Below, in pieces: positions 11,290 through 27,268 of a stretch of DNA of 38,458 bases. The position numbers were made by a program, and so were the translations under genes. Location: contig JADGCV010000003.1 in the NCBI GenBank assembly GCA_015228815.1, forward strand, positions 116,644 to 155,101, given 5' to 3'. Within the stretch, counting starts at the first letter, position 1. Each line of letters starts with the position of its first letter. A model generated the notes under the pieces. It was not told the origin of the DNA. It saw nothing but the letters and a program-made list of their open reading frames with translations, and made no database searches. The stretch comes from Magnetococcales bacterium. Lineage in GTDB: Bacteria; Pseudomonadota; Magnetococcia; Magnetococcales; UBA8363.

Positions 11290-11964
11290 CTAGACCAATT
11301 TTTGCATGGTTCGGATCAGACTGTCTGTCGTTCCGTCCAGATATTGGTCGGCCATGGGATAGAGCATTTGTTCTTCCTTGATGTTGTGTTGCCGCATCAT
11401 GATCACCAAGGTTGAAATAACACGAGTGACCCCGTCCAGTTTATTCTGTTCCATGGCCTGGGCCATTTGGCCAATCAGGCCCGACATCTGACGGTGCTCC
11501 ATGCGCATGACCATGGTCGGCCCCTGGGTCATTCCCGTGGATTTTTCGAAGGCGGGGAAAAATATGTTTTCCTCCATGCCGAAATGATGATCCATCCCTG
11601 TCCTGAACTGGCCAAACAACAATGCCGCTTGTGTCACATCGTTGGCTTGGGCGGCCTGTTCCAATTGACTGAACAGTTCGTCGCAACGCTTGTGATCGGC
11701 GCCGAGAAACTCCTGGATGGACCTTGTCGTCCTCTTGGATGGGGTTCGTGTCATGATGTATTGCCAAACCGGTGGACCCAATTGCAAGGGGGACCATTCA
11801 AATGCGCCCCAGAACCGACCTTGAAAATAGTCGAGCAGTTCGACACCCTTGTTGTCAAGTTTGATGATGATTCCTTCTTCGGGGTTCAGTTTTTCAAAGC
11901 GGGTTTGCAATAATTCGGTAGCCTGGGGTATCGTACTGCCCACAAGATCGATTGGATGTTCCAT
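11290..11964 (-). CDS. DUF2249-like domain plus hemerythrin HHE domain protein
   Basis: 224 aa. Residues 1-80 (PQATELLQTRFEKLNPEEGIIIKLD, then LLDYFQGRFWGAFEW) resemble the small alpha/beta DUF2249 (TusA-like) domain. From about residue 90 a four-helix HHE hemerythrin domain follows, with FLGADHKRCDELF, a DHHFGMEENIFFPAFE segment (H-x4-E type ligands), a histidine in RMEHRQM, and RQHNIKEEQMLYP. Such di-iron domains bind O2 or NO or act in iron-sulfur repair (RIC/YtfE-like). It lies beside the nitrite/NO reduction island, so a role in NO handling is plausible but inferred. An inverted repeat sits upstream of the start. Confidence 0.8.
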   Translation of the reverse strand: MEHPIDLVGSTIPQATELLQTRFEKLNPEEGIIIKLDNKGVELLDYFQGRFWGAFEWSPLQLGPPVWQYIMTRTPSKRTTRSIQEFLGADHKRCDELFSQLEQAAQANDVTQAALLFGQFRTGMDHHFGMEENIFFPAFEKSTGMTQGPTMVMRMEHRQMSGLIGQMAQAMEQNKLDGVTRVISTLVIMMRQHNIKEEQMLYPMADQYLDGTTDSLIRTMQKLV

Positions 11965-12000
11965 GGTTCAATCCTTGATAAAGTGTGGAAAAAAGAGGGC

Positions 12001-12030
12001 TTGATTGCGCCATGTATCGGCGGCAATCAA
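12001..12030. repeat. Inverted repeat upstream of the hemerythrin gene
   Basis: TTGATTGC at 12001-12008 is mirrored by GCAATCAA at 12023-12030, and the stem extends to GCC/GGC with one bulged base. It lies 37 bases upstream of the hemerythrin gene start and 48 bases upstream of the divergent small membrane-protein gene. It could be an operator or a leader hairpin; its function is unknown. Confidence 0.5.
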
Positions 12031-12077
12031 AAGGAATCGTCGCGAATCGGCATCTGTGTCGGAAAGGAAGATTACCA

Positions 12078-12317
12078 TTGGAAATCATCTATTTCACCCT
12101 GGCCGGTATCTTGCTTTATTGGATATCCGACGTTATCGTGCGCCACATCGAACGCAAACGTGGCGCCCTTTTGCCCAATCGCAGCCTGGTTTTTTTCGCG
12201 ATCATCCTGGTCCTGACCATGGCGCTTTTCCAGACGATCCAGACCCTTGTCCCCACCGCCACCGATACCGGACAGGCGCCATCCACAAGCCCGAATGATC
12301 CACTCAATAAAAAATAA
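12078..12317 (+). CDS. Small two-helix membrane protein, unknown function
   Basis: 79 aa from a TTG at 12078, chosen because GGAAAGGAAG ends 7 bases upstream and the first membrane helix starts right there (IIYFTLAGILLYWISDVIV). A basic loop (RHIERKRG) and a second helix (LVFFAIILVLTMALFQTIQ) follow, then a polar tail. I recall similar small proteins in Proteobacteria but no function. Its last 14 bases overlap, tail to tail, the end of the anchored protein gene that closes the NO-reductase operon. It is divergent from the hemerythrin gene. Confidence 0.6.
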   Translation: MEIIYFTLAGILLYWISDVIVRHIERKRGALLPNRSLVFFAIILVLTMALFQTIQTLVPTATDTGQAPSTSPNDPLNKK

Positions 12318-12807
12318 ACCGATTGGCCGCACCATCGAAACCGATGACCAGCGACGTACTGGTCCTGGTAACGATCTGCTTTTCTTCCACGTAGTCGAAG
12401 CCTTCGCTGCGGTTGCTGTCACGCATGCGAATGCTCAGCCTGTGGTCGCCGTCGGGTATGGGATATTTGGCGTAGACATAAGCGGTCCCGTCGTCCTGGA
12501 TTCCTGGAGGGGGAAACGTTTTGCTGGCCAGGATGTTGCCATCCAACAACAGTTCCACCAGAAGCGGCGCGCGCTTGCGGGAACACTCCTTGGGTTTGCG
12601 CATATTGGGAGCCAGACGTTGCAACTCCTCGCGACTCCTTTCGCGACACGCCTCCATACGCTGGGCTGCATGCTTGAAGGCAAGTTTCAGTTCTGCCCGT
12701 CCCGGCTCCAGATAATGATAACCCGGTGAAACGGAAAAAATATAAACCAGGGTAAAAAAGGCGGTATAAAACACGGCCTGCAAGGGCCACTGAATCGACC
12801 TAGGCAT
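12304..12807 (-). CDS. Membrane-anchored extracytoplasmic protein, last gene of the sNOR-like operon
   Basis: 167 aa. The ATG at 12807 overlaps the stop of the cytochrome b fusion gene by 8 bases, and AAGGATG lies upstream. One membrane helix (about residues 8-28, VFYTAFFTLVYIFSV) precedes a charged helix with a CxxxR pattern, then a beta-rich domain with repeated 'D-G-x-H-R-L-S-I-R-M-R-D' and 'LLLDGN...FPPPGIQDDG' segments. I do not recognise the family. The tight overlap says it is made with the cytochrome b/Fe-S fusion and may be an accessory subunit or assembly factor. Longer frames upstream run into the neighbouring gene and are not used. Confidence 0.7.
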   Translation of the reverse strand: MPRSIQWPLQAVFYTAFFTLVYIFSVSPGYHYLEPGRAELKLAFKHAAQRMEACRERSREELQRLAPNMRKPKECSRKRAPLLVELLLDGNILASKTFPPPGIQDDGTAYVYAKYPIPDGDHRLSIRMRDSNRSEGFDYVEEKQIVTRTSTSLVIGFDGAANRFIFY

Positions 12808-14335
12808 GATCAACATCCTTGTCTCTGGCAACAAGCTCCTTGTGGAACGCCTCAAGTTGTGCATCCAACGCCCGTCCCTTCCCCTCCGCCTCCCAGAAGA
12901 ATCGAATACGACCGCGGTCGGTGCGTTTGACGAGACGTGGTTCGCGATTTCCGGCAATGCGTTCTTCCGTCAGGAAGTCACCAAGGCGATGATAGCAGTC
13001 TCCCTGGCGGCAACCGGTGACCATCACCCCGTCCGCTCCCTTTTTCAGGACATAATCCAGGAAGGAGGGGGGCAACATTCCGGTGCAGGGAAGCCTGACC
13101 ACGCCGATGCGGGACACGTCATGGACGGTGGGGGTGACGCCATGATCGCAACCAAACACCATCAACCGCCCCTTGCCACTGAGTCCCGCCATGGCCTGGT
13201 CGGTTTTTTGCCGCAACAGGTCCAGGGACAAACCGGGCATGTGAATGCCGACCTTGAGCGCTTCTCCAGCCAGACGAAACGGGTTGGAGGCGGAACAGGA
13301 GCCTACGCAAATGCCACAGGCGGTACATAATGATGGATCGACCGTGGATTCGAACTGTTTGTCTCTGCCATCGGTGCGCGGACGCATGGTGGCCGCGCCG
13401 AAGGGACAATCCCGGGCGCAACCGCCACATCCCGTGCAGTGTTCCACCATGACGCTGGCCGGAGGGGCCTCCCGCCTGGGAGGCAACCACGGCAGCAGCA
13501 GCAGCAACAGGGTGGTCCCCAGGGAGAGCCCCCAGGCCCACCCCGGTCCCAACCGGTCCACCACCGGATAAATATTCAGATAGAACCAGTCCAGGTTGAG
13601 CACGAGTGGCGATTGCGACAAATTGGCCGGTGCATGGCTGACCGCCGGTTTGACGAGCGAAAGGATCAACAATGCCACCGTGGTGCCAATGGTCAAATCC
13701 CGCGGTGGCATGAAATCAACCTTGCTGATACGACTGACGTGGGTCCACAATAAAAAAACCAATGCCACGGGAAGCCCCAACAGGTGAAGAAATGCCATAA
13801 GGGTAAAAAACCGGTCCGTCACCTGCCCTGGCAGAAAGTTGAAGATCATGGCACTGGGAATGACGGGAAGCCAGTCGGACATTTCCGCCGTGGCGATGGC
13901 CACATATTGGGCCAGCATGTCCCATACCAGCCAATAGCCGGTAATTCCCAGCATGACCACCAACCACAGGGTGGGAACTCCGGTGAACCAGGAAAACCAG
14001 CGGACGCCACGATATCGATCACGACCGAATTCCCGGAACAAATGCAGAAAAATGGTCACCACCGCGGCATCCGAGGCATAACGATGCACGCTGCGCATGA
14101 CGCCAGCCAGCCACCATTGATCATTCGTCATGTACGCGACCGACGAATAGGCCCCCGTGACACTGGTGTCGAAGAAGATGAAAATATAGATGCCGGAGAC
14201 CAGTACGACCCAGAAAAAATAAAATGTAAGCGAACCAAGATGGTATAGAGGGTTTGATCGATTACCGAAGATAATGTTGAGCAACCCTTCCATCCAAAGG
14301 ATGATGCCATTGCAGAGTGTGCGAAAAATTTTCAT
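12800..14335 (-). CDS. Fused cytochrome b (N-terminal) / two [4Fe-4S] ferredoxin / MvhD-type iron-sulfur protein
   Basis: 511 aa. Residues 1-230 are a four-helix diheme cytochrome b of the bc1/b6 type: H84 and H98 on one helix (spacing 13), H184 and H199 on another (spacing 14), with 'GITGYW' between. One more membrane helix follows (about 268-285). A ferredoxin domain has two cysteine motifs, C300-C303-C306-C310-P and C337-C340-C343-C347. The C-terminal domain is like the FrhD/MvhD 'hydrogenase iron-sulfur subunit', with GCDHG (C396), LPCTGM (C417) and GCRQGDC (C442, C447). The parts suggest electron transfer between quinone or a membrane cytochrome and Fe-S centres. It lies 68 bases after sco inside the sNOR-like operon. 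Domain calls are firm; the role is inference. Confidence 0.85.
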   Translation of the reverse strand: MKIFRTLCNGIILWMEGLLNIIFGNRSNPLYHLGSLTFYFFWVVLVSGIYIFIFFDTSVTGAYSSVAYMTNDQWWLAGVMRSVHRYASDAAVVTIFLHLFREFGRDRYRGVRWFSWFTGVPTLWLVVMLGITGYWLVWDMLAQYVAIATAEMSDWLPVIPSAMIFNFLPGQVTDRFFTLMAFLHLLGLPVALVFLLWTHVSRISKVDFMPPRDLTIGTTVALLILSLVKPAVSHAPANLSQSPLVLNLDWFYLNIYPVVDRLGPGWAWGLSLGTTLLLLLLPWLPPRREAPPASVMVEHCTGCGGCARDCPFGAATMRPRTDGRDKQFESTVDPSLCTACGICVGSCSASNPFRLAGEALKVGIHMPGLSLDLLRQKTDQAMAGLSGKGRLMVFGCDHGVTPTVHDVSRIGVVRLPCTGMLPPSFLDYVLKKGADGVMVTGCRQGDCYHRLGDFLTEERIAGNREPRLVKRTDRGRIRFFWEAEGKGRALDAQLEAFHKELVARDKDVDHA

Positions 14336-14388: not shown

Positions 14389-14408
14389 CATGATGACGGA
14401 TCATCATG
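14389..14408 (-). repeat. Hairpin overlapping the sco stop codon
   Basis: CATGATGA (14389-14396) and TCATCATG (14401-14408) form a perfect 8-bp stem with the loop CGGA. It spans the end of sco and precedes an AT-rich 50-base spacer before the cytochrome b fusion gene. It may tune readthrough or mRNA processing between the two. Confidence 0.45.
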
Positions 14409-15222
14409 AGCGCAAGGTACGTCTCACCTCCCGAAAAAGCCAGATGGCGGTGCCAAGAATAATGCTCGCCCCGATGAACAGGCCGACAAACAAGGAATAA
14501 TCAAACCGATAGGCATTCTGGTTGGGATCGTAGGTCGTGCAGAAAAGGCGCACCCGGCGGACCAGATCCTCCATTACCGAATCCTCGCGACGGGGTGTGC
14601 CGAGGATCAATTCCTTGAGCGGGTCAACCAGCCATGGCAGCTGGATGATCTCTCCATAAACCTGCTGATGGATCACCCCATCGGCGTTGACGACCGTGGC
14701 CTGGGTCATGTGATCGAACCCCTTGGGGGACCGGACATAGCTGAACCCGACGTTTCGTGTCAGCCGTTCCACGGTATGGGCATCGCCACTCAGAAAATGC
14801 CAATGTTCATCTTTTACCCCTTGATGATCGGCAAACCAGGCCATGGCTTTTGGATTGTCCACCCGGGTATCGAAACCGATGGTCACGACGGTGAAACTGT
14901 CCACCCCAAGGGCTTCTCGCGCTTTTTCAACCATGTCTGCCAGCGAACGGGTAACTGTGGAACACGTCTGGAAGCAGCTGGTGTAGACGAAACTGATGAC
15001 CAGAGGTTTTCCCTTGAACGAGGCCAGACGAACCGCCTGTTCATGACGGTCAAGGAAGGAATAATCTTCAAGAGGTTTGCCCACGGCGTTCCGACTCATC
15101 GCCAAGGCTCTTTCGACGTCGAAGACATCGTCATTTGCGGCATTTGCCGTCAACCAGGGAACCGTGACCAGCAAGACCAGCCACACCCAGCGCGATAAAA
15201 CACCGTCCATGATCGTTTTCAT
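14404..15222 (-). CDS. sco: SCO1/SenC-family copper chaperone
   Basis: 272 aa. The ATG at 15222 overlaps the ctaB stop (ATGA). A signal/anchor helix (about residues 10-27) is followed by a thioredoxin-like SCO domain with the copper motif CFQTC (C83, C87) and the distal histidine in FDHMTQ (H171). Unusually, a second membrane helix lies near the C-terminus (about 238-262). SCO proteins load CuA of subunit II, and the CuA subunit in this operon keeps all its ligands. A senC gene also accompanies the sNOR genes of nitrifying bacteria. A hairpin (14389-14408) overlaps the stop codon. Confidence 0.92.
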   Translation of the reverse strand: MKTIMDGVLSRWVWLVLLVTVPWLTANAANDDVFDVERALAMSRNAVGKPLEDYSFLDRHEQAVRLASFKGKPLVISFVYTSCFQTCSTVTRSLADMVEKAREALGVDSFTVVTIGFDTRVDNPKAMAWFADHQGVKDEHWHFLSGDAHTVERLTRNVGFSYVRSPKGFDHMTQATVVNADGVIHQQVYGEIIQLPWLVDPLKELILGTPRREDSVMEDLVRRVRLFCTTYDPNQNAYRFDYSLFVGLFIGASIILGTAIWLFREVRRTLRS

Positions 15223-16106
15223 GTTGCCCAGGGTCCCATCCGGCCATCGAAGGAGGCAGCGACCAGGAGCACAAACAAATGCACCAGCGAGGCGCGAAAG
15301 TTGGCCATGGCCGGAATCGGCGTGGGGTCCCAGGTAAGGATGAGACTCCTGGACAGGAAGTATCCCCCGCCGATGACGGCCCCTGCCAGATAGAGCCAAC
15401 CCAGACCAAGGAAAAAGGGGACCAGGGAAACAACGACCAACAGGGTCGTATTGGCAAGGACCACCTTGGCGGCCCGCATCTCTCCGGCGACCACCGGCAA
15501 CATGGGAAGATTGACGGACTGGTATTCTTTTTTCAACGCGATGGCAAGACTCCAGAAGTGGGATGGGGTCCAGAGAAACAGAATGAACGCCAGGGAGGCG
15601 GCCAGAGGGGTCATGTCGGGGTCCACCGTGGCGGTACCGGCCAGGACGGCAAAGCTGCCGGCCAAACCACCGATGACGATATTCAACCATGTGCGCCGCT
15701 TCAACCAGATGGTATACACCACGCCATAAAAGAAAGCGCCCAGAAACACGTAAAGCGCCGCGGTGGCGTTGATGTAGCGCCAAACCGCCACCACGGGCAC
15801 AACCAGCAACATGGCAAAAAAGAATAGCCACCATGGGGAATGCGGGAGCTGCCCCGATGCGAACGGGCGATTGTGGGTGCGCGTCATGCGGGCGTCAATA
15901 TCATGGTCATGGTAATGGTTCAAGCCCCCGGCCGCTCCCGCCGACAGAAGGATGGCCGTCAACAATAAAAACACCTGACCCGCGCTCGGAGTGCCACCCG
16001 CCGTAACCGCAATTCCCATTCCGGCGGTCAACATCATCGCAAAACCGATACGGAGCTTGAGAAGTACGAAGACCTGCCTGGCCAAGATTCTCATGGTGAC
16101 GACCAT
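15219..16106 (-). CDS. ctaB: Heme O synthase (protoheme IX farnesyltransferase, CtaB/CyoE)
   Basis: 295 aa, UbiA prenyltransferase superfamily. The first aspartate-rich motif is in NHYHDHDIDARMTRTHNRP (about residues 63-81), and the family segment LWTPSHFWSLAIALKKEY is central; eight or nine membrane helices follow the usual plan. It farnesylates heme b to heme O, the precursor of heme A. Its presence implies that the heme-copper enzyme of this operon carries heme o- or a-type heme. The first ATG (16106) touches a GAGG, while ATG 16094 has it 12 bases upstream, so the start is uncertain by four codons. Confidence 0.93.
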   Translation of the reverse strand: MVVTMRILARQVFVLLKLRIGFAMMLTAGMGIAVTAGGTPSAGQVFLLLTAILLSAGAAGGLNHYHDHDIDARMTRTHNRPFASGQLPHSPWWLFFFAMLLVVPVVAVWRYINATAALYVFLGAFFYGVVYTIWLKRRTWLNIVIGGLAGSFAVLAGTATVDPDMTPLAASLAFILFLWTPSHFWSLAIALKKEYQSVNLPMLPVVAGEMRAAKVVLANTTLLVVVSLVPFFLGLGWLYLAGAVIGGGYFLSRSLILTWDPTPIPAMANFRASLVHLFVLLVAASFDGRMGPWAT

Positions 16107-16257: not shown

Positions 16258-17991
16258 TTATCCGAGCTTCCAGAGTGAAGACAGATATTTTGCGTTGATG
16301 AAGAAGTAGACGACAAAGGACAGCAGGAATACCAGGGCCAATACGAAGGTTCCCTTGGCTTCGGTGGCCTTGGCGCTGCCGGTATCTTCGATGGGGCTGA
16401 GTTCCAGCTTGTCGGGACGTTCCACCGTGTAGCTGGAGGCCGCCAACGGAAAGCCAAAGCTGGAGAACAAGGTCGCGCCATTGTCCAGGCGCTTGCCGAA
16501 GACCAGAGAGCCGACGGCGATGAGGCAATAGGAAGCGCCACCCACCGCGGCGAGCAAACCGCCGAATCCAGCCAGGCCCATCATGGTGATGGCGGTACCG
16601 GCAAACTGAAACTGGAGGCTGGCATCGGCAAAGTTGATGTCCCAGTGCCGACGGGGAACGCCCAGGGTGCCCGCGCCGAGCATGAAGAGGATCAACATCA
16701 ACATTCCGGCGGTGAAAATGTAGGGTTGCCATTTGGCCAATTGCGGCAGGATGAGCTGGCGACGGAACAGGACCGGAATCAAGAAGTAGGTAATGGCCAT
16801 GAATGCGAGCGTCGTGCCTACCGCGACGGTGGCGTGAAAATGGCCGGGGACGAAAATGGTGTTGTGAATGATCAGGTTGATCTGTTCGGTACCCATGACC
16901 ACTCCGGTGATACCGCCGATGAAACCGAAGACCATCAGGGAGAGGAACATGCCGGAGAAAACCGGATTTTCCCAGGGGGCCTTCTTGAGCCATTCGAACA
17001 AGCCGTTGTTGAACCCTTTTTTGCGCTGAGCCACCTCGATGGCGCCGGGAACGGTAAGTCCGTGAATCATGCTGGCCAGAACCGCCAGATACATGGCATA
17101 ACTGGTATTGAACACCTTCCAGGTGGAACCGATGCCCGGATCGACCAGGAGGTGGTGGGCGCTGGCAAGCTGCAAGAAAAGAATATAGAGCAGAAAGGCG
17201 CCACGGCTCACTTTTTCCGACATTGGTTTGGCGCCGAAAACGATGGCGGCGATGGCATACCACACCGCGACATGGGCCGAGACGTTGATCTGTTGGGAAG
17301 AGTGTCCCATGCCCCACCAGATGACACGATAAATGGCGGGATCGATGTTGCTGATCAAACCAACGGACCACAGAAAGGTGGGGATCAGGATGACCGCGCC
17401 CGTGGCGATCGTGAAAATGGCGATAATGGCGGCGGTGACGGCGCCGAAGGTCACCAGGGGGACGGAGCCGTCATAGGTTTTTTCGTCCTTGGCGACCACC
17501 AGCGTCGCCAGGAAAATAAAGCAACCGATCAACGCGCCCACGGCAAAGAGGATCAACCCCAGATAGAAGATCGGCTCCGCCTGCATGGGCACGTAGGAGG
17601 TGAACATGACGCTGGAATTGCCCCGCAGAAACGCCACCATGGCCAAAATGGACCCCAGCAGCATCAGGACAAAACCGATCCAGCCGATCATCGGCGTTGC
17701 CGGACGACACCGCAGCAGCGTCGAAGAGGCGAAGTAGAGTACCGCTACCTCGAAAAAGATGATCCAGAACAGCAGGATTGCCGTTCCATGCAGCGTCAGC
17801 GCCATGTAAAACGTCTCCGCATCCAATAAATGGATGCCGGGGGCGCGGGTGGCGGCCACCAGGAGACCGAAGATGCCACCGATCAGGAGGTAGACCACCC
17901 CCAATACGGCATGAGCCTTCATCAGAGACTCGGCCGATTTGTGAAAATACAGGCCCGAATCCGGGCATTGTCGAAACATTGCTACAGCCAT
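16258..17991 (-). CDS. B-family heme-copper oxidoreductase subunit I lacking the catalytic Tyr (sNOR-like)
   Basis: 577 aa, about 14 membrane helices; AAGGAG is 8 bases before the ATG. It aligns by eye with Thermus ba3 oxidase (B family), sharing HH-x-x-x-DPGI-x-x-TWK and HNT-x-x-VPGHFH. Metal ligands are present: H68 and H386 (low-spin heme), H384 (high-spin heme), and H230, H279, H280 (copper/iron B). In O2-reducing enzymes the residue four after the first of these is the cross-linked Tyr (GHPxVY); here the motif is GHSSQQ and the position is Gln234. NO reductases that arose from B-family oxidases (sNOR, NorSY of nitrifiers) also lack this Tyr. A glutamate (E369) sits near the active-site helix. 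With the nir operon next door, NO reduction is the likelier role; an unusual O2 reductase is the alternative. Confidence 0.8.
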   Translation of the reverse strand: MAVAMFRQCPDSGLYFHKSAESLMKAHAVLGVVYLLIGGIFGLLVAATRAPGIHLLDAETFYMALTLHGTAILLFWIIFFEVAVLYFASSTLLRCRPATPMIGWIGFVLMLLGSILAMVAFLRGNSSVMFTSYVPMQAEPIFYLGLILFAVGALIGCFIFLATLVVAKDEKTYDGSVPLVTFGAVTAAIIAIFTIATGAVILIPTFLWSVGLISNIDPAIYRVIWWGMGHSSQQINVSAHVAVWYAIAAIVFGAKPMSEKVSRGAFLLYILFLQLASAHHLLVDPGIGSTWKVFNTSYAMYLAVLASMIHGLTVPGAIEVAQRKKGFNNGLFEWLKKAPWENPVFSGMFLSLMVFGFIGGITGVVMGTEQINLIIHNTIFVPGHFHATVAVGTTLAFMAITYFLIPVLFRRQLILPQLAKWQPYIFTAGMLMLILFMLGAGTLGVPRRHWDINFADASLQFQFAGTAITMMGLAGFGGLLAAVGGASYCLIAVGSLVFGKRLDNGATLFSSFGFPLAASSYTVERPDKLELSPIEDTGSAKATEAKGTFVLALVFLLSFVVYFFINAKYLSSLWKLG

Positions 17992-18017: not shown

Positions 18018-18554
18018 TCATTTCACATAAATCTTGCCCAACATGGCATGGTGGCCGATGCCACAGAATTCGTTACAGACAACGCCAAATTCACCCGACT
18101 GCGTCGGCGTCATGGTAAACACCGTTTCGTATCCCGGAAGAATTTGCATGTTCATGTTGACCGGTTGCACGGAAAACCCATGTTGCACATCCAGTGAAGA
18201 GACATGCATGCGGTAGCTTTTGCCTTTTTCCAGTTCGAGGATGGGCCACCAGTCCCAGGTGCGACCCACCAGGTACACATCGCTGCCCTGGGGCGGGGCC
18301 ACCACGGGAATTTCCGCGCTCCCTTCCTTGCGTACCGTATACTGGTCCACCATGGCCTTGGCCTTGCTCTCAAACGCCTCGGGGGTGACCTGGTAGGCTT
18401 CGTTGGACAGGTTTTGATCGCCGTAGATGTGCCAGTACGGCATCCACAGGAAAAGCACCAGACACCAGATCAAGGCGATGGCAATCCACATGGCCTCGAT
18501 GGTGTGCAATTTTTCGTTCCACCATACTTTCGTTGCGGGGGGCATGATACTCAT
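18018..18554 (-). CDS. Heme-copper oxidoreductase subunit II with CuA site
   Basis: 178 aa. The ATG at 18554 has GGAAGGAG 9 bases upstream. One N-terminal membrane helix (about residues 18-40) anchors an exported cupredoxin domain. All CuA ligands are visible: H125 (DVQHGFSV), C160, E162, C164, H168 and M171 (CNEFCGIGHHAM). The single anchor and short length match subunit II of B-family enzymes. It would take electrons from a soluble cytochrome c or copper protein. The stop lies 26 bases before the subunit I start. Confidence 0.92.
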   Translation of the reverse strand: MSIMPPATKVWWNEKLHTIEAMWIAIALIWCLVLFLWMPYWHIYGDQNLSNEAYQVTPEAFESKAKAMVDQYTVRKEGSAEIPVVAPPQGSDVYLVGRTWDWWPILELEKGKSYRMHVSSLDVQHGFSVQPVNMNMQILPGYETVFTMTPTQSGEFGVVCNEFCGIGHHAMLGKIYVK

Positions 18555-18582
18555 GGACTCGTTCTCCTTCCTTGGTGTCGCT

Positions 18583-18991: not shown

Positions 18992-20566
18992 TCAGTGGCT
19001 GGTTCCCGAGGAACGGTTTATTTTGTTGAAAACGTTATATTTTCCAACAGGTTTTTTCATGGGAATACGTTTGACCTCTTCCAGGGTGCCGCTGTCGTAC
19101 ACCACGAGCGCGCCATCCATTTCCCAGATGCTCAACAGGGCATGACGTCCATCCTTGGTGAATTCGACGTGCGCCGCGGTCTTTCCCGGGGCGGGACGCA
19201 GCGTTTTGACAATTTCCAGGGTGGATTTGTCGATGACATGGACCGAATCCTTGTTCGGACCCAGAAAAACATCGGCCCAGGCGTAGGGGGTGGCTTCGTG
19301 ACTGCGCAGGAAGAATCCAGGTCCCAACGTTTTGATGCGCTTGATGGTTTTCCATGTGTGCAAATCGACGACCGTGATTTCCCCCTCTTTCAGATTGGGG
19401 CTCGCCATGACGGTGGTATCCTGGTATTCCCAGGTGATCCCGGAGGCCAGATGCGGCATGCCGGCGATGTCGATCCGGGCGATCCCGCGCCCGACATTCA
19501 GGTTGACCACCTGTCCCGAAAGTCCGCTGCGGGAGGCGCCGATTAAATGATCATAGTTCTGGTCGAAGAAGAAATCATCCAGGACCGATTCCAACACAAT
19601 GCGACGGATGGGAAACGGACCCTTGGCCACCGGGCGCTCTTCACCCGAGGCGGCCTGGAAATCGTGGGTGGGGGCGGTCTCGACCGGACGCGCCTTGTCG
19701 TTGTAGGGAATCTCCCAGATTTCGGGCAAATCCTTGAGCGCAACAATAAAAGTATTGCGTGGCGCGGCGGTGTAGACGGCGCTGGGACGGGAACTTTTTC
19801 CCTGGTCATTGACGATGGGAATCATGTGTACCAGGGACAGGTCCCGTGCATCCAGCACCACCAGGGTATTGGGCAGGGTATTGGCCGCCATGATGTAGCG
19901 GCCATCTCCGGAGACAGCCACATTGCGTGTGTTGATCCCAACCCGTATTTCACAGGTCACTTGCAGACTGAAAAGGTCGAACTGGCTGATCCAGCCGTCG
20001 CGTGACGCCAGGATGGCGAAACGTCCATCCGGGGAATATTTGATGCCGCCGTGCAGGGCAAAGCGTGTGGGAAATCGATGAATCGGTTCCAATCGGTCGC
20101 CATCGAGCACGGTGGCGTGGTGATCACCCGCTTCCACCACCATGAACAGATTCATGGGGTCTGCCGCATGAACCGGTTGTCCCGGCAGACCGGTTCGATC
20201 ATGATGGACGACATGACTGGCCTCGATGGCCGCCTGGTTCCAGGAAACCGGAGTGGAACGGGGGGTATAGATGAATGTCACCAGGGATTGGATGTCGTCC
20301 GGGGACAGTTTTTGGTCGAAGCCGGGCATCTGGGTGGCGGGACGCCCTTTGGCGATGACCGCGATGGCCTCTTTTTTCGGGAACCGTTCGAGATTCTCCG
20401 GCAGCAGCGCCGGTCCCATGGCCCCCAGGCGGTCGATGTGATGGCATTGGGCGCAATGTTCCTGGTACAGGTCGGCGGTTTCCCGAGGTTCTCCGGCCAC
20501 GGCCAGACCTGCAATCATGAATGATACCCCGAACGATGGTGTCAGCCTGAATAGATTCATGATCAT
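18992..20566 (-). CDS. nirN: NirN-type cytochrome: c-heme domain plus heme d1 propeller
   Basis: 524 aa. The ATG at 20566 overlaps the nirJ stop (ATGA). A signal peptide (1-25, ending LAVAG) is followed by a cytochrome c domain with CAQCH (C38-C41-H42) and a probable distal Met in TQMPGF, then an eight-bladed beta-propeller similar to the d1 domain of NirS. NirN is a periplasmic paralogue of NirS that completes heme d1 by oxidising dihydro-d1. It is the last gene of the nir operon, and its end is about 120 bases from the box controlling the sNOR-like operon. It is told from NirS by context and by the separate nirS gene; an exact NirN/NirS split needs a tree. Confidence 0.85.
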   Translation of the reverse strand: MIMNLFRLTPSFGVSFMIAGLAVAGEPRETADLYQEHCAQCHHIDRLGAMGPALLPENLERFPKKEAIAVIAKGRPATQMPGFDQKLSPDDIQSLVTFIYTPRSTPVSWNQAAIEASHVVHHDRTGLPGQPVHAADPMNLFMVVEAGDHHATVLDGDRLEPIHRFPTRFALHGGIKYSPDGRFAILASRDGWISQFDLFSLQVTCEIRVGINTRNVAVSGDGRYIMAANTLPNTLVVLDARDLSLVHMIPIVNDQGKSSRPSAVYTAAPRNTFIVALKDLPEIWEIPYNDKARPVETAPTHDFQAASGEERPVAKGPFPIRRIVLESVLDDFFFDQNYDHLIGASRSGLSGQVVNLNVGRGIARIDIAGMPHLASGITWEYQDTTVMASPNLKEGEITVVDLHTWKTIKRIKTLGPGFFLRSHEATPYAWADVFLGPNKDSVHVIDKSTLEIVKTLRPAPGKTAAHVEFTKDGRHALLSIWEMDGALVVYDSGTLEEVKRIPMKKPVGKYNVFNKINRSSGTSH

Positions 20567-21732
20567 ATCCTCAAGTCTCCGACGATTTCTCCATCCGTAA
20601 GGTAACAACCGGGATCTTCGTTCCATGGGTCGCCTGTCGATTGGCAGGCCCTGACCCGCGTGTTGCCACCGCAGATGGACAGATAATGGCAACCGTGACA
20701 ACGTCCTTTGACCGGCCTGGGTTTCTGGCGCAGTTGTGCCAGAATGGGGTCGTCGTTGTCCTGCCAGATTGCGGAAAAAGGACGATTGCGCACATTGCCC
20801 AGACTGTGGTGACGCCAGAAAATGTCCGGATGGACCTCTCCCCGTTCATCGATGTTGGCGATTCCGACCCCCGACGCATTGCCTCCCCACTGGCGCAACA
20901 TTTTTTCCGCCCGATGTACCAGGTGGGGCCAATGATTCCGCACCCAAAACAGAAAATAGACCCCATCCGCATCATTGTTGCCGGTGACGATTTCACGCGC
21001 CGTCCCCGACTGGAGATCGTCATGACTCAGCGAAAACAACCAGTCCATGGTCTGTCGGATGGCCTGGTGGTCGGCGTCGGTGTCGCGGTTGGCCCATCCC
21101 CGTCCGGCATAGTTCCAGTGGGAAAGGTAAAACCGGTCCAGTTTTTCCTCGGTCATCAATTGAAACAATCCCGGCAAATCGGCGGCATTCTCCCTGGTCG
21201 GGGTGAAACGCAATCCCACCTTGACGCCCTGATCGCGGCAATTGCGGATTCCTTCCAGGGATTGGTCGAATGCTCCATCCACACCACGCATCCGGTCATG
21301 ATTGGTCCTCAGGCCATCCAGGCTGACGCCGACATAATGAAACCCAGCCTCGGCGATGCGTCTGGCCTTTTCCGTGTCCATCAACGTACCATTGCTTGAC
21401 AGTCCGACGTAGAATCCCAAGGCCCTTGCCCGTTCGGCAATGGTGAACAGGTCCGGATGCAACAGGGGTTCCCCGCCGGAGAGGATCAGGGCGGGTACGT
21501 TGCAAACCTTCAAATCGTCAAGCACCTGGAACATTTCGCGCAGGGAGAGTTCTCCATGAAATGTTTTGTTGGCCGATGCGGCGTAACAATGCGCGCAGGA
21601 AAGATTGCATCGTCGCAGCAAATTCCACACGACCACCGGGCCGGCGGGACGTTTTGGAGCGGAAGGACGTCCTGGTCGATCCGTGGTGCCGGGTTGCATC
21701 AGACGACGCATGAATCGGGTCAGCCGGAACAT
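20563..21732 (-). CDS. nirJ: NirJ, radical SAM enzyme of heme d1 synthesis
   Basis: 389 aa. The radical SAM motif is CNLSCAHC (C42-C46-C49), followed by SGGEPLLHP. The C-terminal SPASM-like region has the cysteine series CHGCHYLSICGGN and later cysteines in RACQSTGDP and PGC, for an auxiliary cluster. NirJ removes the propionates of 12,18-didecarboxysiroheme and installs the oxo groups of heme d1. Its start overlaps the end of the siroheme-decarboxylase fusion gene by 13 bases. Confidence 0.93.
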   Translation of the reverse strand: MFRLTRFMRRLMQPGTTDRPGRPSAPKRPAGPVVVWNLLRRCNLSCAHCYAASANKTFHGELSLREMFQVLDDLKVCNVPALILSGGEPLLHPDLFTIAERARALGFYVGLSSNGTLMDTEKARRIAEAGFHYVGVSLDGLRTNHDRMRGVDGAFDQSLEGIRNCRDQGVKVGLRFTPTRENAADLPGLFQLMTEEKLDRFYLSHWNYAGRGWANRDTDADHQAIRQTMDWLFSLSHDDLQSGTAREIVTGNNDADGVYFLFWVRNHWPHLVHRAEKMLRQWGGNASGVGIANIDERGEVHPDIFWRHHSLGNVRNRPFSAIWQDNDDPILAQLRQKPRPVKGRCHGCHYLSICGGNTRVRACQSTGDPWNEDPGCYLTDGEIVGDLRI

Positions 21733-22730
21733 GATGAAGTCTTTCTCGGGGATTGGATGCGCAGGCCGGTCTTTTTGAGAATGCGTGTGCTGTGCAATAC
21801 CTGGTATCCCTGGTGATCATTTCCGAGGATCTCTGCCAATGACGATACCTTGGTCGCCACGGCGTCGTGGTCGGGTCCATGAACCATGACGAACAGGTTG
21901 TATGGCCATGTGGGCCGATGGCGTGGTCGTATATAACAATGGGTCACAAAATCGAGCGTTCCAATGAGTTTGCCAAGCGCGGCAACCTTGTCGTCCGGCA
22001 CGTCCCAGACCGACATGCCGTTACCTGTCAACCCCAGACGATAATGGTTGGTTGCGGCGCCGATTCGTCGGATCCAGCCGCGGGCGATCATCCTTTGCAG
22101 CCGGTCCAGAAGTGTTGTGGTCGTCAAACCGATCGTTTCCGCGACGACCCGATAGGGTTCGGAAACCAAAGGAAGGCCTGTTTGCGTGGCGGTGATGATG
22201 GCATGGTCGATGGCATCGGGTTTTGCCGTGGCAGGAGACGTGATGTCCCTGACGGGCAGGGGACGGGTGTCGATATGGCCATCGTCGTCGAGATGTACCT
22301 GAAAGCCCAGACGAAATTCGTGCAGTTTGGGCAGGTCGAACACGGCAAGGCCGGTCAGGGATTCCAGGCGGGTCAGGACTGCCCTGATTTCATGTTCATG
22401 TTCCGTGGCCACGACGAACCACATGTTGAGTTCGTGATCACGGGCATAGTTGTGGGCAATTTCGGGTTGGGCGTTGACCAGGGTGGCTACGGTGTCAAAA
22501 TCCTGGGACGGGACGCGCATGGCCGCCAGGGTAAGGCCGCCTCCCATGAGCTCCGTATTGAAAAATGGACCGAAACGGGTCAGGTATCCGTCGTGAAGCA
22601 GCCCAGTCAGTTTTTCGATCAGGAATACTTCGTCCATGTGCAGATGGGCGGCAACGACGGCAAAGGGATGGGGATCAAGGGGAAAATCATTTTGCAGATG
22701 ATTGATGATACGGATGGCGAATGGATCCAT
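21720..22730 (-). CDS. nirDL: Siroheme decarboxylase, fused two-domain type (NirDL/NirGH)
   Basis: 336 aa made of two AsnC/Lrp-like halves. Residues 1-165 are of the NirD/NirG type with EIAHNYARDHELNMWFVV; residues 185-325 are of the NirL/NirH type with THCYIRPR and WPYNLFVMVHG. The family removes the C12 and C18 acetate carboxyls of siroheme to give didecarboxysiroheme. Fused NirDL occurs in some denitrifiers. Here it stands beside two separate single-domain paralogues, so four half-units are encoded in total, as in the nirDLGH set. Which pair is catalytic cannot be told from sequence alone. Confidence 0.9.
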   Translation of the reverse strand: MDPFAIRIINHLQNDFPLDPHPFAVVAAHLHMDEVFLIEKLTGLLHDGYLTRFGPFFNTELMGGGLTLAAMRVPSQDFDTVATLVNAQPEIAHNYARDHELNMWFVVATEHEHEIRAVLTRLESLTGLAVFDLPKLHEFRLGFQVHLDDDGHIDTRPLPVRDITSPATAKPDAIDHAIITATQTGLPLVSEPYRVVAETIGLTTTTLLDRLQRMIARGWIRRIGAATNHYRLGLTGNGMSVWDVPDDKVAALGKLIGTLDFVTHCYIRPRHRPTWPYNLFVMVHGPDHDAVATKVSSLAEILGNDHQGYQVLHSTRILKKTGLRIQSPRKTSSCSG

Positions 22731-22756
22731 GAAACAATCTCCGTGGACGTGTATCT

Positions 22757-22811
22757 CCCAGACCCCTTTTTTCTTTCAATAATGAAACCCGGAGGGTCCC
22801 TGGGCAGTTAC
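22757..22811. repeat. Dispersed repeat, copy A (about 55 bp)
   Basis: The stretch runs from CCCAGACCCCTTTTTTC to GGGCAGTTACG and matches, in reverse orientation, positions 38298-38352. Both copies share the poly-T/CTTTCAATAAT core and the TGGGCAGTTAC end, with differences in the middle. It lies between the NirDL fusion gene and the upstream decarboxylase gene and runs into the 3' end of the latter. Confidence 0.8.
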
Positions 22812-23285
22812 GTCAAAATATCTGGCACCACACTGTTTGAAACGACGGCGGCTGAACAGTATCTGTCTGGGAAAAGCTGTCAAACCACAACCTTTGGTAA
22901 TAATATCGGCACGATGAAGGGTCTCTTCCCGCCTTTGACCATGAATCATGCAGTAAAAATTATAAGGCCATCGGGGCAGAACACGTTTGCGCAAATAACT
23001 CAAGGAAACAAAATCGAAAGAAAGAACTTTTTCTCCCGCCTCCCGAACCATCCGGTCGGGAAGGTCCCACACCGCCATGGCATTGGCACGGTAGCCCAAC
23101 TCATGGTGATGCACGATGACCCCGGCACGCTTGATGACACCCTTGGCATGCAGTTCCCGTAACCCTTCCAGGACGTCCATCTCACTCAATCCCAGGGTCA
23201 AACCAATTTCGTGATAGGGACGCGGTACAAGAGGAAAACCATTCTGCACCGCGACCACCAATTGTTGTTCCTGAATGGTAAGCAT
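22776..23285 (-). CDS. nirH: Siroheme decarboxylase-type protein, NirL/NirH class
   Basis: 169 aa, one AsnC/Lrp-like unit with a winged-helix start (PLVPRPYHEIGLTLGLSE) and the class signature SLSYLRKR followed by WPYNFYCMIHG. Upstream, the NirD/G-type gene ends three bases before it, so the two are translated together and probably form a heterodimer. The last 12 or so codons (VTAQGPSGFHY region) lie in the dispersed repeat at 22757-22811, so the natural C-terminus was probably replaced when that element arrived. Assignment to NirL or NirH is arbitrary. Confidence 0.82.
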   Translation of the reverse strand: MLTIQEQQLVVAVQNGFPLVPRPYHEIGLTLGLSEMDVLEGLRELHAKGVIKRAGVIVHHHELGYRANAMAVWDLPDRMVREAGEKVLSFDFVSLSYLRKRVLPRWPYNFYCMIHGQRREETLHRADIITKGCGLTAFPRQILFSRRRFKQCGARYFDVTAQGPSGFHY

Positions 23286-23288
23286 GAA

Positions 23289-23783
23289 CTAGCGACCGAT
23301 CTCGAAACCAAGGTTGATGTAAAATTCCTCTTCCATCGGCATGGAATAAACCTGCAAACGGCTTTTGCGTTCAATTTCATCGATGATCGCCTGAAGACGC
23401 GATGGCGACGCCGCCGTGATGACAAACCAAAGATTCAGTTCATGCTCACGCTCATAATTGTGATTGACCTCGTGAAAACCATTCACGATACCAACGACCT
23501 TTTCCAACTGCTCCGTCGGTACACACATGGCAGCCAGAGTGCTGGCTCCAACCCGGCGCGGACGCAAAACCACGCCGACGCGACTGATCAAACCGGCCTG
23601 CCGCAACAGACAGAGCCGTTCCAGAACCTCTTCCTCCGTGATGCCAAGCTGTTCGGCCAATGCCAGATAGGGTCTTGGAACCAATGGAAAATCCTGCTGA
23701 AACTCATTGAGCAGACGATAATCCAGGCCGGTCGTCGTCGTTGCCGCCATGATCGTGGTATCCCGCACGCTTGGGTGGCCCAT
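23289..23783 (-). CDS. nirG: Siroheme decarboxylase-type protein, NirD/NirG class
   Basis: 164 aa from an ATG at 23783; an ATG at 23750 would give 153 aa, and neither has a clear ribosome binding site. It has a winged-helix start (DFPLVPRPYLALAEQLGITE) and the class signature EVNHNYEREHELNLWFV. It follows nirF by 3 bases and is followed 3 bases on by its NirL/H-class partner. D or G cannot be told apart from the sequence alone. Confidence 0.85.
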   Translation of the reverse strand: MGHPSVRDTTIMAATTTTGLDYRLLNEFQQDFPLVPRPYLALAEQLGITEEEVLERLCLLRQAGLISRVGVVLRPRRVGASTLAAMCVPTEQLEKVVGIVNGFHEVNHNYEREHELNLWFVITAASPSRLQAIIDEIERKSRLQVYSMPMEEEFYINLGFEIGR

Positions 23784-23786
23784 GGA

Positions 23787-24971
23787 TCAAAAACCGATTC
23801 TGTTGGCTCTTGAAGTCATGAAAATGCCACTGGGACTTTTTGCCGGCAAACTGGTCAGACGCACGAAACTACTGGTATCGAACACATCGATGCGCTCTTC
23901 GTCGCGCACCGAAACCCAAACCTGCTCCCCCCGAGGGGTGAATTCCATGTGCATGATTCCCGGTCCCGGGGTCATGGTCTTGACCACCTTCAACGTGGGA
24001 ACGTCGATCACCTGCAAGGTATTGTTGTCGGGGTGGGCAAAATTGACCCACACCTGACGCCCATCGGGTTGCGCCATGGCAAAAACCGGTTGGCTGTGAA
24101 CCGGGATGCGGCCAACCTCCTGCCATGACTTGCGGTCCACGACCAAGAGTTCGTGACGCCCCATGGCAGGGAGGAAAAGGAAGGAATCGGTCATGGCCCA
24201 GCCGCGCAGATGCGGCATTTTATAGACCGAAAGCCTGGGTTCACCGTGGCCGTAGTGGTCCAGGATGCGCCGGACCCCCTTTTCCCGATGCCATAAATCG
24301 ATCAATGCGAAACCATCCTCGCCGAACAGGCCGGCGACATAATAACGACCGTCCGGAGAAATCAAGGCATCGTAGGGTTTGCGACCGACATCCTTGAATC
24401 GGGTGATGGCAGGACTGGCAGGGGTGCTGACATCGACAAGCCAGATTTCGTCGGCATCGAAAAGGCTGAAAATAAAACGCTGTCCCGGGACGTCGGCCAG
24501 GCCCACCACCTTGGATGGATGGCCCCCGGCATCGACCGCGGCAATATCCGCGACCATTTCCAAGGTTTCCGAATTGAAAATACGCACGCCGCCCGGTTCA
24601 TAGTTGGCCACCGCCACCAGCCGCCCATCCTGGGAAATGGCCCCGCCGATGCTGTTGCCCGCCTGCACCACCCGTCCGACACGTTGACCGGTGAGCAGAT
24701 CGATCTTGCTCAACCCGCCATCGCGACCAAATATGAAAGCGAAGCGGGCATCCCTGGAGTAAACCAGCGATGCATGCGACAGATCTCCCAGTTCCTCGAC
24801 ACGCGACAGCCTTGTTTTATCGGTGGTTTCCACGACCAACACACTTCCCGAGGCCCGTTCGATGATCACCCCCAGATCGCCACTGCCGCGAGAAGCGCAT
24901 CCATGGAGAAAAAGGGACGGCAGCGAAAGGGCCAACCCAATGTAAAAACCTGGAAACGAAAGGCGCATCAT
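23787..24971 (-). CDS. nirF: NirF, heme d1 biosynthesis lipoprotein
   Basis: 394 aa. The ATG at 24971 overlaps the nirC stop and has GGAGG upstream. The signal peptide ends in a lipobox (FLHGCAS), so the mature protein is likely a periplasmic lipoprotein. The rest is a d1-type beta-propeller without a cytochrome c domain (no CxxCH), with blades such as YSRDARFAFIFGRDGG and ISPDGRYYVAGLF. NirF is needed for d1 formation; reported roles include dehydrogenation or binding of a d1 precursor next to NirN. Confidence 0.92.
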   Translation of the reverse strand: MMRLSFPGFYIGLALSLPSLFLHGCASRGSGDLGVIIERASGSVLVVETTDKTRLSRVEELGDLSHASLVYSRDARFAFIFGRDGGLSKIDLLTGQRVGRVVQAGNSIGGAISQDGRLVAVANYEPGGVRIFNSETLEMVADIAAVDAGGHPSKVVGLADVPGQRFIFSLFDADEIWLVDVSTPASPAITRFKDVGRKPYDALISPDGRYYVAGLFGEDGFALIDLWHREKGVRRILDHYGHGEPRLSVYKMPHLRGWAMTDSFLFLPAMGRHELLVVDRKSWQEVGRIPVHSQPVFAMAQPDGRQVWVNFAHPDNNTLQVIDVPTLKVVKTMTPGPGIMHMEFTPRGEQVWVSVRDEERIDVFDTSSFVRLTSLPAKSPSGIFMTSRANRIGF

Positions 24972-25306
24972 CGAAATCCTCCAGATTGCAATTTTTCGAT
25001 CAGCCAACGAATTTCTTCCCGGGTCAGCAATTCCTTCCATGCCGGCATGGCATTTTCCGCCCTTCCAAAGTAGACGGTATCTTCGAGCATGTCGGACGGT
25101 TTTCCCTCAAGGGCCTCTCTGGTCAACGCCGGCCCCAGACCACCTTTCATGGTCATGCCATGACAGGAGCCGCAATCCTGAAGTACCAGACGCGCCAGTT
25201 GTCGTTGCCGTTCCGGGGCCACTTCCGCAAGGGAGGAAGCCGCGCATGGAAACGACGACACGAGGAAAAACAGGACACCGATAAGGCTTCGATGGATTGC
25301 GCACAA
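24968..25306 (-). CDS. nirC: NirC-type periplasmic cytochrome c
   Basis: 112 aa from a TTG at 25306, the only start codon after an in-frame stop, with GAGGAG 11 bases upstream. A signal peptide precedes one c-heme motif CGSCH (C45-C48-H49), and the likely sixth ligand is Met87 in NAMPAW. NirC is a cytochrome c55x in nir operons that can donate electrons to NirS or act in d1 maturation. It lies 140 bases after nirS, separated by a long hairpin, and its stop overlaps the nirF start. Confidence 0.9.
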   Translation of the reverse strand: MCAIHRSLIGVLFFLVSSFPCAASSLAEVAPERQRQLARLVLQDCGSCHGMTMKGGLGPALTREALEGKPSDMLEDTVYFGRAENAMPAWKELLTREEIRWLIEKLQSGGFR

Positions 25307-25384
25307 ATCTCGCTGGTCTCCTCACTCCCGCCCTTCGCACTTTTATAAAAAGGGAAAGAAACAGGGAGGCTGAACGATGATCCC

Positions 25385-25416
25385 GGTCCGGGAAGGGGCT
25401 TGCCCCTTCCCGGACC
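25385..25416. repeat. Perfect 15-bp-stem hairpin between nirS and nirC
   Basis: GGTCCGGGAAGGGGC (25385-25399) and GCCCCTTCCCGGACC (25402-25416) are perfect complements with two bases between them. It lies 31 bases after the nirS stop. No U-tract follows on the minus strand. The placement fits a processing or stability element that lets nirS mRNA accumulate above the rest of the operon. Confidence 0.7.
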
Positions 25417-25446
25417 CATTGAATCGTTTCCGAATGTCAACACACC

Positions 25447-27268
<1,822 letters not shown>

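Follow-up and report, generated by a model that had tools for sequence, protein, structure and literature searches.

A cytochrome b–ferredoxin–MvhD fusion protein encoded alongside a putative eNOR in Proteobacteria

The window analysed here, i.e., the whole stretch of 38,458 nucleotides from a Magnetococcales bacterium (contig JADGCV010000003.1, forward-strand positions 116,644 to 155,101), carries on its minus strand a gene at 12800..14335 whose 511-aa product, starting with ATG, joins a cytochrome b (residues ~13–288), a ferredoxin with two predicted [4Fe–4S] clusters (~295–349) and an MvhD domain (~391–501). This gene is currently annotated merely as 'cytochrome b N-terminal domain-containing protein'. 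Upstream of it on the same strand lie, in order, the genes for an SCO1/SenC copper-assembly protein (14404..15267, start approximate, with the ORF extending to 15834), the heme O synthase CtaB/CyoE (15219..16106, scoring above the TIGR01473 cut-off), a B-family, eNOR-type heme-copper subunit I (16258..17991) and subunit II, in which the CuA motif is complete (18018..18560). A denitrification block of cytochrome d1-type and heme d1 synthesis genes follows (18992..27261, minus strand), encoding cytochrome c-d1 proteins, NirJ, siroheme decarboxylase proteins (Ahb/NirDLGH-type) and a cytochrome cd1 nitrite reductase-like protein.

At the other end, a minus-strand gene at 12304..12807 encodes a small membrane-anchored protein of 167 aa with one predicted transmembrane helix and a periplasmic domain. 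Its ATG (12807–12805) precedes the fusion's stop codon (12802–12800), and this overlap of the two genes points to translational coupling, and a homologue accompanies the fusion at 75 of the 80 named loci discussed below. No Pfam or PDB relative of this partner protein was found. A role as a Rieske-like protein or copper carrier is not supported, since two Mariprofundaceae-type orthologues have lost both members of its Cys pair. A small conserved membrane protein (11985..12317, plus strand), usually convergent to the operon end, has orthologues at about half of the loci and matched no known family. A hemerythrin-domain protein (11290–11964, minus strand) also adjoins the operon, and related genes occur close to the operon in several Gammaproteobacteria as well as on a Defluviimonas plasmid. 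In many operons the last gene encodes a second heme-copper-like subunit I, ~460 aa long (e.g., L054:12013-13470, L095:7964-9349 and L154:2126-3649), which keeps three heme His and one CuB His, with the helix VII His–His pair absent in the alignment. No NCBIfam model or PDB relative was found for this second protein, which is possibly a heme-only or regulatory homologue.

The preliminary description of this DNA had placed the fusion in an operon for an NO reductase-like heme-copper enzyme, and the signature of subunit I and the CuA subunit both agree with this assignment. The closest PDB relatives of subunit I are the B-family ba3 oxidases; where oxidases show GHPxVY (GHPVVY), it shows GHSSQQIN, with Gln replacing the cross-linked Tyr. 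This residue, Q234, is Gln in 47/47 relatives and in the plasmid copies of Thermus and Thermomicrobium, and is Tyr in a distant control (G333). Subunit II presents the CuA ligands H127, C162-N-E-F-C166, H170 and M173, the full set being conserved in 43 sequences. The Gln is given as the mark of eNOR (PMC8756737), and eNOR is placed with the B-family and called biochemically characterised (PMC11388526). The B-family membership and the Gln signature lead us to treat the neighbouring enzyme as an eNOR (PMC8756737, PMC11388526), with a putative NO reductase activity. No fusion gene lies beside the eNORs of Thermus and Thermomicrobium, the Thermus copy adjoining Rrf2-family and DUF542 genes instead, so that the fusion is not intrinsic to eNOR catalysis. 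The genome of the window also encodes a cNOR, a cbb3 oxidase and a CtaD-type oxidase subunit I, and given this cNOR, the eNOR is an additional NO-reducing system rather than the sole one. In this genome (G000:C46; L170, L173), a CtaD-type oxidase gene stands beside a divergent 466-codon heme-copper-like gene that has no solved relatives.

That the three parts form one polypeptide, as the preliminary description had it, is borne out by Pfam, which finds Cytochrome_B (residues 29–203, 8.9e-17), Fer4/Fer4_7 (295–349, 2.9e-8) and FlpD/MvhD (409–501, 2.6e-14) within one ORF; the heme ligands H84, H98, H184 and H199 and the eight ferredoxin Cys were likewise correctly located there. The suggestion that all three domains normally occur on separate proteins stands only in part: the ferredoxin–MvhD pair is already a known unit, found at the C-terminus of HdrA2. 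The reservation that the domain order might be a sequencing fusion can be dismissed, as relatives are encoded on at least 264 other genome contigs, and the aligned ones share both the domain order and the ligands. All four His are invariant in the 104 aligned FeS-type sequences (104/104), as are the 12 Cys, eight in the ferredoxin and four in the MvhD part, with the exception of C300 (103/104). This conservation of the heme, Fe–S and MvhD ligands fits an unbroken electron wire, in which the hemes and clusters are predicted from their ligands.

The cytochrome b part shows the four-helix diheme core and two His pairs of the cytochrome b/b6 superfamily and is of the b6 type, with heme His spacings of 14 and 15 and cytochrome b6 as its best PDB matches. 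An AlphaFold2 model built from 87 family members (pLDDT 86, pTM 0.81) replaced a poor model from 16 sequences (pLDDT 62); in it, residues 13–288 are predicted to align with cytochrome b helices A–F over ~255 residues (Z ~20–23, rmsd ~3 Å). Almost all of the fold-search matches listed are to these residues, so that the identity assigned to the tail follows from sequence matches. The stretch after helix D gives a weak but in-register match to b6f subunit IV (E 3e-4), in which LDWF faces the quinol-site motif PEWY. D249 and W250 show no variation across the 104 FeS-type and 11 NAD(P)H-type sequences (the latter being described below), and position 251 is Phe in 100/104 and 10/11 of them, respectively. 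The cytochrome b part may thus bind quinone. Helices G and H are absent, and a heme c_n as in b6f is unlikely, no Cys being apparent there when the sequence is inspected by eye. Both termini of cytochrome b6 lie on the cytoplasmic side; by analogy, the two further helices of the fusion should leave its C-terminal domains in the cytoplasm as well. No match to Rieske or cytochrome c1/f proteins was found among the operon ORFs scanned, which sets the operon apart from those of bc1 and b6f complexes.

The MvhD part bears four further Cys (C396, C417, C442 and C447, each 104/104) and scores 53.7 bits against PF02662, well above the cut-off of 22.3. Residues 291–501 of the fusion match HdrA2 residues 570–768, i.e., its C-terminal ferredoxin–MvhD unit. 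The HdrA flavin domain is missing, and since the tail alone matches, the score against HdrA2 is 70 bits vs. a cut-off of 1100. No hdr or hydrogenase genes were found among the window ORFs scanned, in keeping with the earlier statement that there are none nearby; an HdrA2-like protein with a ferredoxin–MvhD tail is encoded on another contig of the same genome. A role for this protein as a specific partner is not supported, as its gene is present in congeners that lack the fusion and so does not track it.

A sister protein carries the same kind of cytochrome with a different tail. In the order of G377, a cytochrome b inside the same operon is fused to Fer2–FAD_binding_6–NAD_binding_1 at 11 of the 14 loci examined, the tail domains being identified by Pfam in one of these eleven and by similarity to that one in the other ten. 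Its cytochrome b is 45–51% identical to that of the fusion; the four heme His are present, and the plant-type [2Fe–2S] Cys motif is intact in 11/11. Both forms often occur within one operon, and two genomes (G426 and G495) have the NAD(P)H form only. In the tree the NAD(P)H-tailed forms make up one clade (100/99), so that a single tail exchange suffices as an explanation. One 1194-codon ORF with an NAD(P)H-type cytochrome b (L157:7904-11485) overlaps the positions of SCO and CtaB, which probably reflects a frame that stays open ahead of the true start and not a larger fusion. Where differing copies are paired, they would fit a dimer such as those of bc complexes, although this is a guess by analogy.

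The distribution of the fusion was examined in a scan of a genome collection, in which 264 stretches, a lower bound, encode relatives. The best 80 named loci were tabulated, and come from Magnetococcales, diverse Gammaproteobacteria and one Mariprofundaceae MAG; a Defluviimonas plasmid carries the same operon. Among these 80, eNOR subunit I is present at 52, and at 10 SCO/CtaB continue until the contig or stretch ends; 6 have too little upstream sequence, and 12 have no eNOR genes upstream. The concern that homologues might occur mostly without a heme-copper operon is thus not borne out, with 62/80 adjoining eNOR-operon genes. For the non-adjacent loci, a whole-genome search found eNOR in 9 of the 12 genomes tested (one partial). 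In the Magnetococcales family f4, eNOR occurs in 13/15 fusion-bearing genomes, where the two co-occur even though their genes lie on different contigs or ~20 kb apart. Across 48 Magnetococcales genomes, 25 have eNOR and fusion, 1 eNOR only, 3 the fusion only and 19 neither. The sole genome with eNOR only (G065) has a contig that ends right after SCO, and the three with the fusion only are fragmented or incomplete, two of them keeping SCO or CtaB next to the fusion. In the second proteobacterial order, that of G377, 150 genomes were compared, and eNOR and this cytochrome b occur in exactly the same 16. The corresponding Fisher p values (~2e-9 for Magnetococcales and ~7e-22 for the order of G377) ignore kinship and hence overstate the association. 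However, the distribution is patchy and the two also co-occur where their genes are unlinked, both of which speak against common descent as a simple explanation. Of eight genomes in the genus of the window, only the window's own has either eNOR or the fusion. Two tandem fusion copies, both with ferredoxin–MvhD tails, occur in Mariprofundaceae-type genomes. One locus (L101) is a second, orphan fusion copy that lacks the small partner, its genome carrying a complete eNOR operon besides (L122).

We tentatively favour the reading that the fusion serves proteobacterial eNOR as a dedicated transmembrane subunit for electron input, and give this reading slightly less than an even chance. A soluble cytoplasmic donor would reduce the MvhD [2Fe–2S] site and, through it, the two [4Fe–4S] clusters; in the NAD(P)H-tailed form, electrons would instead pass from the cytoplasmic donor through the FAD domain to the Fe–S cluster. 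From the Fe–S clusters they would move to the inner and then the outer heme b, and from there to CuA of eNOR, either directly or by way of quinone occupying the outer (Qp-like) site, whereupon eNOR would reduce NO to N2O. The 12304–12807 protein may serve as a structural periplasmic partner without a cofactor. Within this scheme, the direction of flow, the direct contact with CuA and the identity of the donor are our inferences. The scheme draws on the conserved ligands, the predicted fold and the joint inheritance with eNOR in two orders, and also on the sister protein: an NAD(P)H-tailed form that occurs alone in two genomes implies that the cytoplasmic half is exchangeable, which favours an input module carrying cytoplasmic electrons via the b hemes towards eNOR. 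With the membrane cytochrome constant and its cytoplasmic redox end exchangeable, the simplest reading is a conduit in which that end selects the donor, and this favours entry of cytoplasmic electrons over the departure of quinol electrons to an Fe–S partner. However, several points count against an input subunit. We found no soluble protein that would donate electrons to the MvhD tail, outward electron movement costs membrane potential, and NAD(P)H reductase modules are able to run in reverse. The cNOR in the same genome, the Thermus and Thermomicrobium eNORs without an adjacent fusion, and a genome (L081) with the fusion and a second heme-copper-like protein in which no eNOR was detectable also weigh against it.

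Another reading, unlikely but deserving serious attention, starts from the fact that the fusion gene directly follows CtaB and SCO, both assembly factors: the fusion would be a metal reductase, similar in function to CcoG or to cytochrome b/FAD metalloreductases, using cytoplasmic electrons to reduce periplasmic Cu(II) and so loading CuA and CuB of eNOR together with SCO. The layout of a cytochrome b with an NAD(P)H–FAD module resembles that of ferric/cupric reductases such as FRE/NOX, and an assembly factor would likewise be co-inherited with its client. However, the Pfam scan gave no FixG_C/CcoG match to the fusion at 0.001, setting it apart from CcoG/FixG itself, and helices A–F, LDWF and the invariant D249 and W250 suggest the geometry of a quinone site, which a metal reductase would not need. 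Moreover, the partner protein (12304–12807) has no clear metal site, some orthologues having lost both of its paired Cys, and the eNORs of Thermus and Thermomicrobium occur without the fusion.

The same quinone-site features allow electrons to be pictured as running the other way. In a quinol bifurcation or reverse-flow scheme, quinol would be oxidised at the outer site, one electron going to CuA and NO while the second crosses the b hemes and reaches the Fe–S/MvhD or FAD domain, reducing ferredoxin, an Hdr-like partner or NAD(P)+. The complete diheme cytochrome b with its PEWY-equivalent motif and tails of kinds able to reduce low-potential acceptors would suit this scheme, as would the hosts, many of which bear the names of sulfur oxidisers, iron oxidisers or magnetotactic bacteria, organisms that need reverse electron flow. 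Nevertheless, we consider it improbable, as Rieske and cytochrome c1/f are absent among the operon ORFs scanned and the Qp site has no demonstrated adjacent acceptor for the first electron, the quinone sites themselves being putative. Its most far-reaching version, which we regard as quite improbable, is a transmembrane supercomplex of proteobacterial eNOR in which a Rieske-less b6-type cytochrome would split quinol electrons between CuA/NO and the Fe–S/MvhD or NAD(P)H module, such that NO reduction drives the reduction of ferredoxin or NAD(P)+. The b6/bc-type fold with quinone-site motifs and the existence of an NAD(P)H-tailed form would also suit a plain oxidoreductase between a cytoplasmic donor and quinone, feeding the pool and serving eNOR indirectly through bc1 and cytochrome c. 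We give this little credence, as a reductase serving the quinone pool at large would be expected in genomes lacking eNOR too, whereas the two sets of genomes coincide.

NO reductases are thought to be fed by cytochrome c or quinol. If the fusion is indeed an electron-input subunit, this class of NO reductase would depend directly on NADH or an Fe–S donor and bypass the bc1 complex. For sulfur oxidisers, iron oxidisers and magnetotactic bacteria, N2O formation and NO detoxification would then have to be placed differently, and proteobacterial eNOR would gain a marker gene pair. The parts of the protein are known; their combination, and the strict link with eNOR in Proteobacteria, seem not to have been described in the literature searched. 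The eNOR literature covered by this search, outside which the main eNOR paper falls, yielded no description of the fusion gene, and an earlier description is possible.

A comparison with known systems shows what is shared and what is particular to the fusion. The eNORs of Thermus and Thermomicrobium share the Gln with the neighbouring subunit I, but the fusion is not beside them. In CcoG/FixG, NosR and NapH, cytoplasmic Fe–S clusters on a membrane protein serve a periplasmic or respiratory enzyme; the fusion resembles them in these clusters, whereas they have neither a bc-type diheme cytochrome b nor an MvhD domain. Among named cytochrome b models, ExtP of the selenite/tellurite operon scores best (E 3e-29), and the next stretch has a weak match to ExtQ; the fusion differs in scoring 102 bits vs. 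the ExtP equivalog cut-off of 290, in the absence of an ext operon and in its additional Fe–S/MvhD tail. The tail itself is like the C-terminal ferredoxin–MvhD unit of HdrA2 and QmoB, except that the fusion has no HdrA flavin domain, has a membrane cytochrome b attached, and is encoded in a window without HdrB/C. Finally, cytochrome b6/subunit IV and bc1 cytochrome b share with the fusion helices A–F, the b6-type His spacing and a PEWY-equivalent motif; in contrast to them, the fusion has no Rieske or c1/f protein among its operon ORFs scanned, has Asp in place of the Glu of PEWY, lacks helices G–H, and carries a cytoplasmic Fe–S/MvhD or FAD/NAD domain.
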